The notes under the pieces were generated by a model that saw only the letters and a list, made by a program, of their open reading frames with translations, made no database searches and was not told where the DNA came from. Of a stretch of 64,000 nucleotides of DNA, positions 26,242 to 31,466 are shown one piece after another; position 1 is the first letter of the stretch, and each line of letters starts with the position of its first letter. The translations under genes and the position numbers were made by a program. Source of the DNA: Actinomadura graeca (lineage in GTDB: Bacteria > Actinomycetota > Actinomycetes > Streptosporangiales > Streptosporangiaceae); the NCBI RefSeq assembly GCF_019175365.1, contig NZ_CP059572.1:4774001-4838000 (forward strand), written 5' to 3'.

Positions 26242-26709
26242 TCAGATGCGCTCGCCGTGTTCGAGATACCGGGTACTGCCGTCGCTGCGCGCGGCGTGGG
26301 CGTGGAGAAGACGGCGAGCAAGACGCGGGATGGTCAGGTCGTGGATCTGGGCGATGTCGTGGAATTGGCAGCCGACCAATTCGCCGGGTTCAAGGCGGAG
26401 GGCATCGAGTTGCTCGGTGGTGAGGACGCCGCCGTCGAAGAGGAAGAGGACCTTGTCGCCCTCAGCCGGGTTGGGGGCCCAGTCGGCGACCAGGAGTCGT
26501 CCGATCTCCGGGCGGATGCATAGTTCTTCAGCGACTTCGCGCTTGGCGGCCTGGTAGGGGGTCTCGCCGCGCTCGACGTAGCCGCCGGGGATGTCGCGGT
26601 AGTCCTTGTAGGACGGCTCGACCAGCATGATGTGGTCTTGATCGTTGAAGAACAGGACACCTGCCGCCGCTCGAGCGTGGGCGAAGGTTGCCGCCGGGTC
26701 ATCGGTCAC
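26242..26709 (-). CDS. NUDIX hydrolase
   Basis: 155 residues. The Nudix box runs from GGYVERGETP to AAKREVAEELCI near residues 42-65, with the catalytic REVxEE glutamates intact; the glycine after EE is replaced. It hydrolyses a nucleoside diphosphate linked to some moiety, substrate unknown. The start is GTG. It lies 24 bp downstream of the XRE-TPR regulator on the same strand, so the two are likely cotranscribed, divergent from the radical SAM gene. Confidence 0.9.
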   Translation of the reverse strand: MTDDPAATFAHARAAAGVLFFNDQDHIMLVEPSYKDYRDIPGGYVERGETPYQAAKREVAEELCIRPEIGRLLVADWAPNPAEGDKVLFLFDGGVLTTEQLDALRLEPGELVGCQFHDIAQIHDLTIPRLARRLLHAHAARSDGSTRYLEHGERI

Positions 26710-26733
26710 GGGAGTTGAGCGTAGGAGATTGGG

Positions 26734-27960
26734 CTAGATGATGCTCATCCGGCGAGCGAGATCAGCCAGGAGGCGGCTTCTCTTGCCGGTAGTAGTGCCG
26801 CGGAGTTGGTGGACGAGGTGGCGGCTCATGACGTGGGCGTGGACCTGTTCGGCGGCCCGGCGCTCAGCGGCGAGCAGTTCACTGATGGCCTCATCGACCT
26901 TGTTACGGGCCCGGTAGACGTCGACGACTTCAAGGCTGTGGCGGACCGAGCGTTCGACGGGTAGGTGGGTGGTGGTGATACCTGGAATGAGGTCGAGTGC
27001 GGTGGGGACATCACCCAGCGCCATGGCTACAGTGACGCGGTGGATGCGCACGTTCGTGGGGCCAAACGCCGTCCACAGGTGGTTGGCGTCCGCGCCGAGT
27101 GCGTCGGCCAGCTGCTCGGCTCGTTTCACGTAGCCCATTGCATCGGCGCGGTGGTGGGCGCGGGCAGCGGCGACGGCTCCGGTGAGTAGCAGCGTTCCGT
27201 GGATCGACAGCAGCGTAGGCGAGAGATCAGCATGCTGGTGCTGTAGGTATCGCGACGCGTGTTGGGCCATTGTCGCTGCCTCGTCGAAGCGGCCTTGGGA
27301 GTGCAGTGCGTGGATCACCGAGCGGAACAGCGACCCAATGATCGTGGGGTCTGCGGTGCGTTCGGCCGCTGTAAGTCCGCGCTGAGCGGCGATCCAGGCC
27401 AGGTCGGCCTCACCGAGCTTGGTGAGCAGCATCGCGGCCGACTGGTTGGCAAGGGCGGCGAGCCGATCGGCGTTAGGCCGCTGGTGCCCGCGGGCTTCCC
27501 TGGCAGCGAGGTGGGTCTGGGTGAGCAGCGTGGGCAGGCGGGCGAGCAGCTGTCCGTAGCGTGAATGCTGGTAGGCGGCCATCACTATTGCCACATCGCG
27601 ACGAAGTACCTCCAGCCGGGGCGGTTCGGGCTCTGCTTCGATCGCTGCCAGCAGTGGGGACAGTTGCCGGTAGTCGGCGAGCGTAGAACGGACGGCGCTG
27701 ACGTCCAAGTGGGACGGCTCACGACGCATCGACTCGGCAGGCTGTGGGCCGATGATGTCGAAGACGGAGATGCACAGGGCATCGGCGAGTGCCCTGATGA
27801 TCGAGAGTCTGTCCAAAGCTGCACGGTCATTTTCGATCTTACTGAGCCAGTCTTCGGTCCGACCGACCAGGCCGGCCAAGACCTCTTGGGAGATGCCCCG
27901 CCGGACGCGGTGCCAGGCCACGCGCTGCCCCGGTGATAGGTGCTGCAAGTGATCGGACAT
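26734..27960 (-). CDS. XRE family regulator with TPR-like C-terminal domain
   Basis: 408 residues. The N-terminal helix-turn-helix (about 10-65) reads LSPGQRVAWHRVRRGISQEV, VGRTEDWLSKIENDRAALDRL. The remaining 300 residues are all helical, with TPR-like repeats (AAQRGLTAAERTADPTIIGS and similar). The architecture recalls regulators that sense a peptide or small molecule through TPRs. The ATG at 27960 is preferred to the adjacent GTG because AGGAGG is five bases upstream. It is divergent from the radical SAM gene; the 153-bp gap contains two exact 20-bp direct repeats that are the obvious candidate binding sites. Confidence 0.9.
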   Translation of the reverse strand: MSDHLQHLSPGQRVAWHRVRRGISQEVLAGLVGRTEDWLSKIENDRAALDRLSIIRALADALCISVFDIIGPQPAESMRREPSHLDVSAVRSTLADYRQLSPLLAAIEAEPEPPRLEVLRRDVAIVMAAYQHSRYGQLLARLPTLLTQTHLAAREARGHQRPNADRLAALANQSAAMLLTKLGEADLAWIAAQRGLTAAERTADPTIIGSLFRSVIHALHSQGRFDEAATMAQHASRYLQHQHADLSPTLLSIHGTLLLTGAVAAARAHHRADAMGYVKRAEQLADALGADANHLWTAFGPTNVRIHRVTVAMALGDVPTALDLIPGITTTHLPVERSVRHSLEVVDVYRARNKVDEAISELLAAERRAAEQVHAHVMSRHLVHQLRGTTTGKRSRLLADLARRMSII

Positions 27961-28033
27961 CACAGCCTCCTGTCAGGCGACCCCGGAATTTCTTTCCGGG
28001 TCGCATCCCTCTTGCGGTTTTAATGTCTTGGAC

Positions 28034-28094
28034 GTTGCGCAGCAACGCGTCCGACGGATTCGAGTCGAGGCGATCGGATTCGAGTCGAGGCGAT
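28034..28094. promoter_or_regulatory. Tandem 20-bp direct repeat and small inverted repeat before the radical SAM gene
   Basis: CGGATTCGAGTCGAGGCGAT occurs twice without a gap, at 28055-28074 and 28075-28094, ending 19 bp before the radical SAM start codon. Just upstream is GTTGC-GCA-GCAAC (28034-28046). A -10-like TATGTA directly follows the second copy. The arrangement suits cooperative binding of the divergent XRE-TPR regulator close to the promoter. Confidence 0.6.
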
Positions 28095-28113
28095 ATGTAA
28101 CGGGACGGGCCAG

Positions 28114-29229
28114 ATGTACCAATTAATCGCAAGTCCATTCCTAGGCGGCTTCCTGGTACTGATGCCGGGGGAGACCCGAGGAATCAAGATTTCGCAGGCG
28201 GCCTACCGGGCACTTGCCGACGCCGAAGTACTTCCTGATTGGCTGACGGCAGCCGCCCGGACCACCTGGGGGATCGACCTTCGCGGGCAGCGGTCCGGCG
28301 ATCACCTGCTCCTTCGCTGCGAGTCGAACCACGGGTTCGGTAAGGCGACCTATGAGCTGAATCTTGGCTGCAACTACGACTGCGAGCACTGCTACCTCGG
28401 CCTCAAGACCTTCGATGGGATGGGCTGGCCCGAGCGTGAGCGCTTGCTGGAGGCGATCCGGGATGCCGGCGTCTTGTGGCTCCAGCTCACAGGTGGGGAG
28501 CCGATGGTGGATCGGCTGTTCGCCGCCGTCCACACCAAGGCCTACGAACTGGGCATGATGGTGGAGATCTTGACCAACGGCTCCCGGCTGGCCGACCCCA
28601 AAATGCTCGACCTGCTGACGACCCACAGGCCGAGCAAGATGAGCCTGAGCGTCTATGGCGCTACAGCGGAGACCTACGACGGCCTCACCCGACGGCCAGG
28701 CTCCTTCCGCAAGTTCATGCGCGGGCTGTCGGCGGCGCACGAGGCCGGCCTCCAACTGGATCTGAGCCTGATCATCACCAACCGCAATGCCCATGAACTC
28801 CACCTCATGCGCCAACTGAGCGAAAGGTTTGGGCTACGACATCGCGAGTACGCCAACATCTCCCCGACCATCCACGGCGGTGCTGAGAGCCTGCCGTCCC
28901 AGTCACCCCAGTTCCTGAGCAAGCGGGCACCCTTTACCGGCTGCGACGCCGGACACACGTCGTTCCACGTCGACCCGTTGGGCCGGGCGAGCATCTGCAA
29001 GATCGGCCGTGACCCCAACATCGACCTGGTACGCGAGGGACCACAAGGGCTCCAACGCCTGGGCGGCATCAGCGACGACCTGCTGCGCCGCCGGGGCGGA
29101 TGCACAGGCTGCACGCTCCAGGGCACATGTGGGACGTGCATGCCGCTGGTACAGCTCTACCGCAATGCCAAAGCCCCGCTGGCCACCTACTGCCAGCACC
29201 AAGAGCCCCGAGAGGAGCTACCCCGGTGA
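28114..29229 (+). CDS. Radical SAM/SPASM enzyme, likely peptide maturase
   Basis: 371 residues. The N-terminal 75 residues (MYQLIASPFLGGFLVL onward) precede the radical SAM core and could be a peptide-recognition segment. The [4Fe-4S]/SAM cysteines are C86, C90 and C93 in LGCNYDCEHCYLG, and the GGEP motif is at 127-130. The C-terminal SPASM region has C277 and C295 in the C-x12-G-x4-C pattern, then C330, C333, C339, C342 and C360, enough for auxiliary clusters. SPASM enzymes typically cross-link or otherwise modify ribosomal peptides. The next gene, overlapping by GTGA, encodes a 43-residue cysteine-containing peptide, the obvious substrate. Confidence 0.93.
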   Translation: MYQLIASPFLGGFLVLMPGETRGIKISQAAYRALADAEVLPDWLTAAARTTWGIDLRGQRSGDHLLLRCESNHGFGKATYELNLGCNYDCEHCYLGLKTFDGMGWPERERLLEAIRDAGVLWLQLTGGEPMVDRLFAAVHTKAYELGMMVEILTNGSRLADPKMLDLLTTHRPSKMSLSVYGATAETYDGLTRRPGSFRKFMRGLSAAHEAGLQLDLSLIITNRNAHELHLMRQLSERFGLRHREYANISPTIHGGAESLPSQSPQFLSKRAPFTGCDAGHTSFHVDPLGRASICKIGRDPNIDLVREGPQGLQRLGGISDDLLRRRGGCTGCTLQGTCGTCMPLVQLYRNAKAPLATYCQHQEPREELPR

Positions 29230-29357
29230 GCATCACGATCGAGGTGCAGGACGGCCCCGCGACAGAGGAAGCAGTCGTCGAGATCGTCGAAGATGTCAAC
29301 GACGCAGCCGAATACGCGATCGGCCTTGGCTGCGGCGACGACAACCCTTACCAATGA
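29226..29357 (+). CDS. Candidate RiPP precursor peptide (43 aa)
   Basis: Starts at GTG overlapping the stop of the radical SAM gene and ends ATGA-style at the next possible start. The 43 residues split into an acidic, helix-prone leader (VQDGPATEEAVVEIVEDVND at 7-26) and a Gly/polar C-terminus GLGCGDDNPYQ with a single cysteine at 36 and an aromatic Tyr at 42. This leader/core contrast, size and coupling to a SPASM radical SAM enzyme fit a ribosomally made, modified peptide. The single Cys next to Asp/Asn/Tyr suggests a thioether or C-C cross-link; the chemistry is unknown. I do not recognise it as a member of a described RiPP class. Confidence 0.75.
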   Translation: MSITIEVQDGPATEEAVVEIVEDVNDAAEYAIGLGCGDDNPYQ

Positions 29358-29380
29358 CGACGCGTAGGGCACCGCAGCAC

Positions 29381-29412
29381 GGCCCCTCGCCCATCCCCGT
29401 AGGCGAGGGGCC
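29381..29412. terminator. Hairpin between precursor peptide and kinase
   Basis: GGCCCCTCGCC (29381-29391) and GGCGAGGGGCC (29402-29412) form a perfect 11-bp stem with a 10-nt loop. It begins 24 bp after the peptide stop codon. RiPP precursor genes are often followed by such a hairpin, which acts as a partial terminator or mRNA stabiliser so that the peptide is made in excess over the enzymes. Confidence 0.65.
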
Positions 29413-29431
29413 CCTCCAGTACGGTTCCGAT

Positions 29432-30193
29432 GTGACCGAACGGCTCCCCTGGCACCAGGCGCAGGCACTGATCGAGAAGCACACTGGGCCGGTGATCACT
29501 GCTCGCCCGGTCAGCGAGGGCTTCAACTCCGAGATCGCCGTGGTCATCAACGACACCACATTCGTCAAAGGACTGCGCATCGATCACCCGCGCGCCTGGA
29601 CCCAAGAACGTGAACGCCGGATCAACCCGCACATCCAAAACGTCTCGGCTCCGCTTCGATGGACGGAGATCACAGGTGGCTGGGACCTCAACGGGTTCGG
29701 CTTCATCGACGGCCGTCCTGCATCCTACGAGCCGTCCAGCCTCGACCTCGACCTCATCATCGCCATGATGGCTCACTGTCCACACGCCCCTGACGGTGTC
29801 GAACTCAAGCGAGCCGAGCAACGCTGGTCGAGCTACAGCGACCAAGCCGAAGAGTTCGCCGGCGACTGGCTCTCGCACACCGACTGGTCACCCGCCAACA
29901 TCCTCATCGGCAGTGACAAGCGGGCATATATGCTCGATTGGGCCTGGCCCACCAGAGGGGCTCGCTGGATCGACTCTGCCTGCTGGATCATCTGGCTCAT
30001 CGCCTGCGGACACCATCCGGCGCAAGCACAGGCCTGGGCGTCCAAGATTCCGTTCTTCGCCGCCGCACCCGCCGACGCGGTGACAGCTTTCGCCAAAGCA
30101 CAGGCCGCGATGTGGGAAGACATCGGCGACCACGCACCCCATCCCGGGCTTGCCGCAGCAGCAACTAGCTGGGTCAAGCACCGAACCACCTAA
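29432..30193 (+). CDS. Aminoglycoside-phosphotransferase-fold kinase
   Basis: About 253 residues. It has the APH/choline kinase fold: an N-terminal lysine strand (TTFVKGLRI, K46), the catalytic loop HTDWSPAN at 149-156 with Asp151, and the metal-binding Asp169 in YMLDWAWP. The start is placed at GTG after the hairpin, but an ATG overlapping the peptide stop (29354) would add 26 residues. Next to a radical SAM enzyme and its peptide, it may phosphorylate the peptide or a partner metabolite, or give self-protection. An unrelated resistance kinase is also possible. Confidence 0.85.
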   Translation: MTERLPWHQAQALIEKHTGPVITARPVSEGFNSEIAVVINDTTFVKGLRIDHPRAWTQERERRINPHIQNVSAPLRWTEITGGWDLNGFGFIDGRPASYEPSSLDLDLIIAMMAHCPHAPDGVELKRAEQRWSSYSDQAEEFAGDWLSHTDWSPANILIGSDKRAYMLDWAWPTRGARWIDSACWIIWLIACGHHPAQAQAWASKIPFFAAAPADAVTAFAKAQAAMWEDIGDHAPHPGLAAAATSWVKHRTT

Positions 30194-30311
30194 CGCACCC
30201 CCTTAACCCGGTGCGCCAAGAACGCTGGAAGGACACATGGCCCTCTAGGTCCATCCCTCGACAACACTGGTTCCTCCTCACCGCGAGGAAGCGGTCCTCA
30301 TCGACAACGCC

Positions 30312-30686
30312 ATGGTCGACCTCGTCCGTGCCATCTGGGCGAGGCGCTGGCAAACCGCTGCCTGCTGCCAGGACACAGGCGAGGCGGTCGAAGCCGAACG
30401 CAACGCTGTAGAGCCTGTCGGCGAGCCGACGGGCAACTCTGGTTTCATCGAGTACTACCGCGGGTGGGCCTGGCTCAAGATGCCGCGCGGCGATGCGCTT
30501 GCCCTCCTCAGCGATCTGGCGGCCGATGACCAGTTCCGCGAGTTCGTCACCACCCGATGGGCCCAGGGCTCCTGGCGTCTCCACACGCCCGTCGTCTGGA
30601 TGGGCGAGCGATTCACGACAGCCGCCTTCGTCCAGATCTACTTCCCGTCGAATCAGATCATCGCTCTGACGAAGGTACTCATCTGA
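30312..30686 (+). CDS. Conserved protein of unknown function
   Basis: 124 residues. MVDLVRAIWARRWQTAACCQD at the start and the IEYYRGWAWLKMP and FREFVTTRWAQGSWRLHTPV segments look like a conserved soluble actinomycete family in which CCQD recurs. Residues before the ATG in the same frame (HREEAVLIDNA) also look family-like but are cut by an upstream TAG, so the N-terminus may be truncated. No function can be assigned. It lies 118 bp after the kinase and may belong to the same transcript. Confidence 0.6.
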   Translation: MVDLVRAIWARRWQTAACCQDTGEAVEAERNAVEPVGEPTGNSGFIEYYRGWAWLKMPRGDALALLSDLAADDQFREFVTTRWAQGSWRLHTPVVWMGERFTTAAFVQIYFPSNQIIALTKVLI

Positions 30687-31375: not shown

Positions 31376-31392
31376 TGACTTGCATCTTTGTG

Positions 31393-31466
31393 TCGGGGTG
31401 GCGGGATTTGAACCCACGACCTCTTCGTCCCGAACGAAGCGCGCTGCCAAGCTGCGCTACACCCCG
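31393..31466 (-). tRNA. tRNA-Pro (anticodon CGG)
   Basis: 74 nt without encoded CCA. The acceptor stem CGGGGTG pairs with CACCCCG and is followed by discriminator A. The anticodon stem is CTTCG/CGAAG with loop TTCGGGA, giving anticodon CGG for codon CCG. The T arm contains GGTTCAAATCC. It sits at the boundary between the accessory island and core genes, a usual place for integration of mobile DNA. Confidence 0.95.

Follow-up and report, generated by a model that had tools for sequence, protein, structure and literature searches.

A radical SAM peptide locus of actinomycetes and the association of its APH-fold kinase gene with a core tyrosine

The window considered here is a stretch of 64,000 nucleotides from the 8.98 Mb genome of Actinomadura graeca (contig NZ_CP059572.1, positions 4,774,001 to 4,838,000). 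It contains a compact locus in which the gene for a radical S-adenosylmethionine (SAM) enzyme is followed by a very short peptide gene, an RNA hairpin and the gene for a kinase of the APH fold. In related genomes, this kinase gene accompanies peptides that carry a tyrosine after a proline near their C-terminus, and it was found beside none of the peptides with another residue at that place. A sequence-only reading of the window had earlier described a NUDIX gene, an XRE-TPR regulator, the radical SAM enzyme, the peptide and an APH-like kinase, and all five genes lie where it placed them.

The enzyme and its peptide

The enzyme gene (28114 to 29229, forward strand) encodes 371 amino acids, comprising a predicted RRE-like N-terminal domain, a radical SAM domain and a SPASM domain, and the product is the presumed maturase of the peptide. 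Its closest named homologue, at 95%, is from Actinomadura mexicana. The window protein matches Pfam Radical_SAM (PF04055). An alignment of 23 sequences contains the CxxxCxxC motif and the seven cysteines of the SPASM type, six of them invariant and one nearly so. Among the 25 best NCBIfam models, none reaches its cut-off with the window protein. For instance, it scores 61.8 against a cut-off of 625 for StsB, 38.9 against 850 for AlbA and 63.4 bits against 265 for the MftC equivalog. Likewise, no curated model of a sactipeptide or ranthipeptide maturase scored above cut-off in the three radical SAM proteins that were scanned.

The predicted structure of the enzyme has a mean pLDDT of 75, with values below 50 at residues 87-99, 248-281, 327-346 and 352-371. 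SkfB and SuiB are its top structural matches, aligned over most of the chain and into the N-terminal domain. This domain is predicted to have a beta-beta-beta-alpha-alpha order, and it is aligned within SkfB and SuiB as part of the whole-chain alignment. Both of these proteins carry an RRE/PqqD-like domain.

The peptide gene (29226 to 29357, forward strand) has 43 codons and a GTG start that overlaps the stop of the enzyme gene. Its product, VSITIEVQDGPATEEAVVEIVEDVNDAAEYAIGLGCGDDNPYQ, ends in the core GLGCGDDNPYQ, in which Tyr is the sole hydroxyl residue. Neither Pfam nor NCBIfam has a model that matches the window peptide, and NCBIfam likewise gave nothing for six further peptides.

Homologues of the enzyme were collected from several overlapping samples. 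A sample of the window's order gave them in 31 of 297 genomes at E 1e-40 or better; they were also found in two family samples (71 of 394 genomes in the family of a Kitasatospora, at E 1e-60 or better, and 18 of 297), in 5 of 346 genomes of the phylum, in 2 of 200 of another order, and in genus samples with 2 of 2, 16 of 70 and 46 of 256; named genomes gave 67 loci. After duplicates were removed, the first set held 168 distinct loci. A profile search found a peptide homologue 3' of the enzyme gene in 159 of them. The remaining nine are five contig ends, two broken enzyme frames (both of which still carry the peptide by motif), one enzyme fragment and one remote protein of 25% identity. The peptide is also present at all 33 loci of a held-out set, described below, and is intact in four of six leftover loci, mostly partial; of the other two, one (L333) has a broken core and a GNAT acyltransferase gene, and one (L263) offers too little sequence.

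The peptide start overlaps or abuts the enzyme stop in 88 of the 159 loci. The window peptide gene differs from those of its two nearest relatives at 9 and 7 codons, in every case synonymously, and a more distant pair (L036 and L070) shows 4 synonymous and 7 non-synonymous changes. Given the synonymous-only changes and the homologues in 159 of 168 loci, the peptide gene is not a chance reading frame.

The cores were aligned on the proline near the C-terminal end in the 158 loci with at least 1.4 kb of downstream sequence. Upstream of the core lies an acidic leader with the motif xEIEFVxDLDxL. Every core has cysteine, either as CxC at positions -9 and -7 (105 loci) or as a single Cys at -5 (53 loci, the window included). 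The part that follows is roughly [GSND]DDxP-X: position -4 holds Gly, Ser, Asn or Asp, 143 loci have Asp at -3 and 149 have it at -2, and 151 have Asn or Gln at -1. The residue X after the proline is Tyr in 129 loci, His in 19 and Phe in 10, and one or two residues lie beyond it in 49.

These results support the view that the SPASM enzyme and the peptide are one conserved unit with a conserved C-terminus. The pairing of enzyme and tiny gene that the sequence-only reading had drawn from a single locus is thus borne out, as are the two things on which it had staked the idea: the SPASM genes are not consistently without the peptide, and the C-terminus is conserved. Its description of a single-Cys core suits the window and 52 more loci, and the other 105 have CxC instead.

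The kinase and the core tyrosine

The kinase gene (29432 to 30193, forward strand, 253 amino acids) starts, as assigned in this analysis, 74 bases downstream of the peptide stop. The window copy has no Pfam match, and 10 of 18 members of its family match PF01636 at E 0.1 or better. Residues K46, E61, H149, D151, N156 and D169 are invariant in 18 sequences. In a larger set of 57, every sequence has Lys46, Glu61, His149, Asn156 and Asp169, and 91% have Asp151; of the 127 readable members of a wider set, 119 have Asp and 8 have Glu at the Asp position of the HxD motif. The structural model has a pLDDT of 95, and its Foldseek matches are APH(2''), the choline kinase LicA and CcrZ, at E about 1e-7. 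By predicted fold and by its catalytic Lys, Glu, HxD, Asn and Asp, the protein is an APH-fold kinase, and it is proposed to be an O-kinase of the core tyrosine.

A kinase gene lies downstream in 126 of the 129 Tyr loci, on its own in 116 and together with a GNAT call in 10. One of these ten (L055) has a weak GNAT match of 58 bits that lies further away. At the Phe and His loci, a kinase gene occurs in none of 29 and a GNAT gene in 28, and the remaining locus, L143 (Phe, single Cys), has neither. The three GNAT proteins that were scanned match PF00583. In 31 genomes (28 with Phe or His loci and three with the exceptions among the Tyr loci), a search for the kinase family at E 1e-15 gave a match in 13 and none in 18. 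By coordinates, none of the matches listed lies at any Phe or His locus, and in five genomes (G116, G368, G369, G375 and G514) the strong kinase matches adjoin a second locus, which is of the Tyr type. Where a single genome has loci of different types, the rule applies to each of them.

After the rule had been written down, it was applied with unchanged profiles to a held-out set from one genus sample, in which 33 loci remained of 34 places once a duplicate was removed. A kinase gene accompanied all 24 Tyr cores and none of the nine others (His 6, Phe 1, Asn 2), all nine of which have a GNAT gene. In the leftover loci, both Tyr cores have the kinase, and the two His cores have GNAT genes and no kinase. 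Pooled, a kinase lies beside 152 of 155 Tyr cores and beside 0 of 40 non-Tyr cores.

The column X gives 0.597 of the 0.727 bits of information on kinase presence, and the next best of 26 columns gives 0.270. An example of the rule within one clade is provided by three Tyr sisters (L056, L059 and L060), which have both GNAT and kinase, and two Phe sisters (L061 and L113), which have GNAT alone.

Relatives of the kinase also occur elsewhere. The window's own genome has four paralogues, at about 160-260 bits. In genome G406 (L243:6706-8160, reverse strand), a close relative of 388 bits is fused to a C-terminal DUF218 domain, and no radical SAM or peptide gene was found near it. A second system, seen at L002 and L260 (window's own genome, C1:4449030-4450613) as well as at L245, L248, L252 and L254, has a shorter radical SAM protein whose gene is immediately followed by one for a kinase paralogue. 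The C-terminus of that protein is itself rich in Cys and Pro, often acidic, and ends like CSPGFPGSGCSPRN; this tail could represent either a core fused to the enzyme or an atypical end of the SPASM domain.

Hairpin, regulator and neighbouring genes

Between the peptide and kinase genes lies a strong RNA hairpin (29381 to 29412, forward strand) with an outer stem of 11 bp. It had gone unremarked before, as had the recurrent gene family downstream of the kinase. By the criterion of a net score of 11 or more within 130 bases after the peptide stop, a hairpin is present in 172 of 191 loci, compared with 3 and 18 of 191 in control segments further downstream and 2 of 191 inside the enzyme gene. Perfect stems of 10 or more occur in 91 of 191 loci against 0 of 191, and the paired bases co-vary in close kin. 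The hairpin has no Rfam match at gathering score, and a sub-threshold snoRNA match overlapping the peptide gene was taken as chance. It is a candidate attenuator or stabiliser and probably keeps precursor expression above that of the tailoring enzyme.

On the other side of the enzyme gene, an XRE regulator (26734 to 27963, reverse strand; Pfam HTH_31) is divergently arranged, as it is in the nearest kin. Its C-terminal part is TPR-like, with weak profile matches only. In 23 of 26 wide loci an XRE gene, of one of several types, is no more than 4 kb away, and of 33 XRE reading frames 16 fall in the 2 kb immediately upstream. Because these same loci supplied the profiles, the distances are informative and the detection is not. 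The inverted repeat CCCGGAA-TTTCT-TTCCGGG (27982 to 28000), between the divergent genes, recurs in all six close loci that were printed and is a candidate operator. It was preferred to a perfect tandem repeat of 20 nucleotides just upstream of the enzyme start (28055-28094) because none of the five close kin printed has that duplication.

Next to the regulator is a NUDIX hydrolase gene (26242 to 26709, reverse strand; PF00293). A NUDIX gene beside an XRE regulator recurs in close kin; several Streptomyces loci and two further ones have such a pair with a NUDIX gene of another sequence cluster. Of 81 loci, 17 have a NUDIX-profile match in the flanks that were scanned, and the NUDIX genes fall into three sequence clusters, of which the one scanned is PF00293. 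NUDIX was therefore ranked below the core genes, as an accessory gene in a minority of loci. The suggestion that the five genes form one system does not hold in that form: the kinase usually belongs to the enzyme-peptide unit, but NUDIX does not, and XRE genes are common but of varied types.

Downstream of the kinase, a small protein is encoded at 30312 to 30686 (forward strand; its start in the window is uncertain). Its family, of about 150 amino acids with an ACCQD- or TCCQD-like motif, often lies 3' of the kinase in single-Cys loci and is retained in L143, where the kinase is gone. Two relatives have no Pfam match. In the window, the protein seems to be shortened at its N-terminus (30211-30686).

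The neighbour clusters, from 81 loci, rest on a simple gene call based on third-position GC content, from which small or unusual genes can escape. Among the 24 largest clusters no peptidase and no common transporter was seen; an ABC ATPase occurs in four loci. A PCMT-like (protein-isoaspartate) O-methyltransferase gene lies near six loci (L042, L045, L060, L066, L084 and L105), and it could be a further tailoring enzyme, given the conserved Asp-Asp of the core. An integrase- or recombinase-like gene, judged by eye, recurs near five loci (L060, L061, L101, L122 and L127), in keeping with horizontal spread. About 1.2 kb past the kinase gene lies tRNA-Pro (cgg; window 31392-31466, reverse strand), which, given the patchy distribution of the locus, could mark the edge of an island.

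Interpretation and known systems

The best reading, of reasonable probability, is that of a family of ribosomally synthesized and post-translationally modified peptides (RiPPs) in which the radical SAM enzyme modifies the peptide, perhaps at Cys, and the kinase O-phosphorylates the core tyrosine. In this model, the acidic leader would be bound by the RRE-like domain of the enzyme, which would modify the C-terminal core, most likely at the invariant Cys; a thioether from Cys to a nearby Asp or Asn is a guess. The neighbouring kinase would then phosphorylate the hydroxyl of the Tyr after Pro. Lineages without the kinase would drop the constraint on Tyr and show Phe, His or Asn, with a GNAT gene in place of the kinase gene in almost every case, and in this sister branch GNAT may acylate in place of the kinase step. 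The hairpin would keep the precursor in excess of the tailoring enzyme.

The earlier idea that the kinase could phosphorylate the peptide gains comparative support from the association with Tyr and can be narrowed, as a prediction, to one residue. The asymmetry of the rule is as predicted for a kinase substrate: a kinase implies Tyr in 152 of 152 cases and Tyr implies a kinase in 152 of 155, as if loss of the kinase (exemplified by L109 and L120) preceded drift of the residue. Since no peptidase or common transporter was seen in the largest clusters and an XRE gene is usually near, the product may have an intracellular role or leave the cell by an export system encoded elsewhere. A fuller version, in which an APH-fold kinase places O-phosphotyrosine on a core crosslinked by the radical SAM enzyme, a sister branch is GNAT-acylated and the product is an intracellular signal sensed by the XRE regulator, can be put forward tentatively.

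Another explanation, rather unlikely as it stands, is self-protection. Here the kinase and GNAT would inactivate the finished product, the kinase still acting on Tyr. Both are types of antibiotic-inactivation enzyme and replace each other between lineages, and the Tyr association is accounted for equally well. However, no toxicity or target is known, and a gene of this kind need not follow the precursor gene so regularly.

Several facts weigh against phosphorylation of the core tyrosine as the explanation. Three Tyr loci have no kinase, one with neither kinase nor GNAT (L065) and two with GNAT (L109 and L120). Many of the held-out loci are kin of loci already seen, all coming from one genus sample. 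The peptide profile was trained on peptides picked by a P[YFWHL] motif near the end, yet it recovered the Asn cores of the held-out set. Paralogues of the kinase (about 160-270 bits) are encoded at other loci, some beside a different radical SAM protein, and together with the DUF218 fusion they indicate that the kinase family is not confined to the peptide system. GNAT presence is partly confounded with both the residue and kinase absence; a Pagel-type likelihood test on one tree gave p 0.008 for Tyr and GNAT and p 0.001 for kinase and GNAT. Finally, there are only about four independent, unpolarised changes between Tyr and non-Tyr, and a pairwise sign test cannot become significant (p 0.125 and 0.25).

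The last of these facts also favours an improbable alternative, in which the link is a by-product of shared ancestry and a few lineages both lost the kinase and changed the residue. On the enzyme tree (the trees being quick LG+G4 ones with some weak branches), Tyr changes about four times and kinase presence six times, and where a pair differs in Tyr, the kinase differs in the same sense or, in rare cases, is unchanged. Against shared ancestry, the likelihood test links Tyr and kinase (LR 33.6, p 9e-7), whereas CxC (p 0.58) and the Asn before Pro (p 0.095) show no such link to the kinase on the same tree. In addition, the residue X changes 0 times in 140 kinase-bearing rows and 5 times in 41 kinase-free rows (181 rows), with 79% of pure-clade branch length bearing the kinase; the chance that all five changes fall in kinase-free parts is 4.5e-4, or 0.01 counting just the three inside pure clades. 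The obedience of different loci within one genome also argues against it. The Asn before Pro is found in all 38 GNAT loci (including the weak match of L055) and all 9 held-out ones, but on the tree this link reached only p 0.075, so GNAT is not assigned a substrate.

It is very doubtful that the kinase resembles the phosphotransferases of class V lanthipeptides and thioamitides, phosphorylating Ser or Thr of the core for elimination to dehydro-residues. The precedent is sprPT of the shared family PF01636, which stands beside a HopA1-like partner, sprH3, both being proposed for dehydration and cyclisation (PMC7794033), and Ser does occur in many CxC cores. Yet the stretch from eight residues before Pro to the end is free of Ser and Thr in 34 of 126 kinase loci, the window's among them, kinase presence tracks Tyr, and no lyase-like partner was noticed in the 24 largest neighbour clusters, where no search with the HopA1 profile was made.

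A role as cofactor source, with Tyr converted into a small redox molecule as from PqqA or mycofactocin MftA, is suggested by the SPASM enzyme, the Tyr close to the C-terminus and the weak likeness to the mycofactocin maturase model (63 bits against 265), but it has little to recommend it, since Tyr can be replaced by Phe, His or Asn, residues follow its position in 49 of 158 cores and no peptidase is among the largest clusters. A cyclophane requiring an aromatic residue at the last position was ranked lower on finding Asn there in two held-out loci.

We know of no precedent for a phosphotyrosine RiPP. If true, it would give APH-fold enzymes a role as peptide-tyrosine kinases and actinomycetes an unusual natural peptide. 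For an unnamed radical SAM gene, matched in 71 of 394 and 31 of 297 sampled genomes, there is now a system open to testing in which the proposed substrate residue is specified. Natural variants are at hand in the kinase and GNAT branches, and the Phe, His and Asn forms separate the parts of the core that serve the radical SAM enzyme from those that serve the kinase. No paper matched the motif strings in a full-text literature search, whose coverage is limited, and absence from print is not claimed.

Among known systems, the maturases of sactipeptides, ranthipeptides and streptide (SkfB, SuiB, StsB and AlbA) share the radical SAM core, the SPASM cysteine set, an N-terminal domain and an adjacent short precursor. 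They differ in that the NCBIfam scores here are far under the curated cut-offs and that a kinase or GNAT gene follows. To our knowledge, the core shares no known motif with those systems.

Tailoring phosphorylation of a RiPP is known in lasso peptides of the paeninodin type. Their kinases are HPr-kinase-like and act on Ser, and thus differ from the present one in fold and residue. An APH-family kinase in a RiPP locus is known from the sprPT-type phosphotransferases (PF01636; PMC7794033); here, by comparison, the kinase tracks Tyr, no partner of the lyase kind was noticed, and the first modification is presumed to fall to the radical SAM enzyme.

Mycofactocin and PQQ systems likewise combine a SPASM enzyme with a tiny precursor ending near Tyr, but the locus described here falls short of their equivalog cut-offs, and its Tyr is replaceable. 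It is classed among the radical SAM RiPPs, apart from the sactipeptide and mycofactocin systems.

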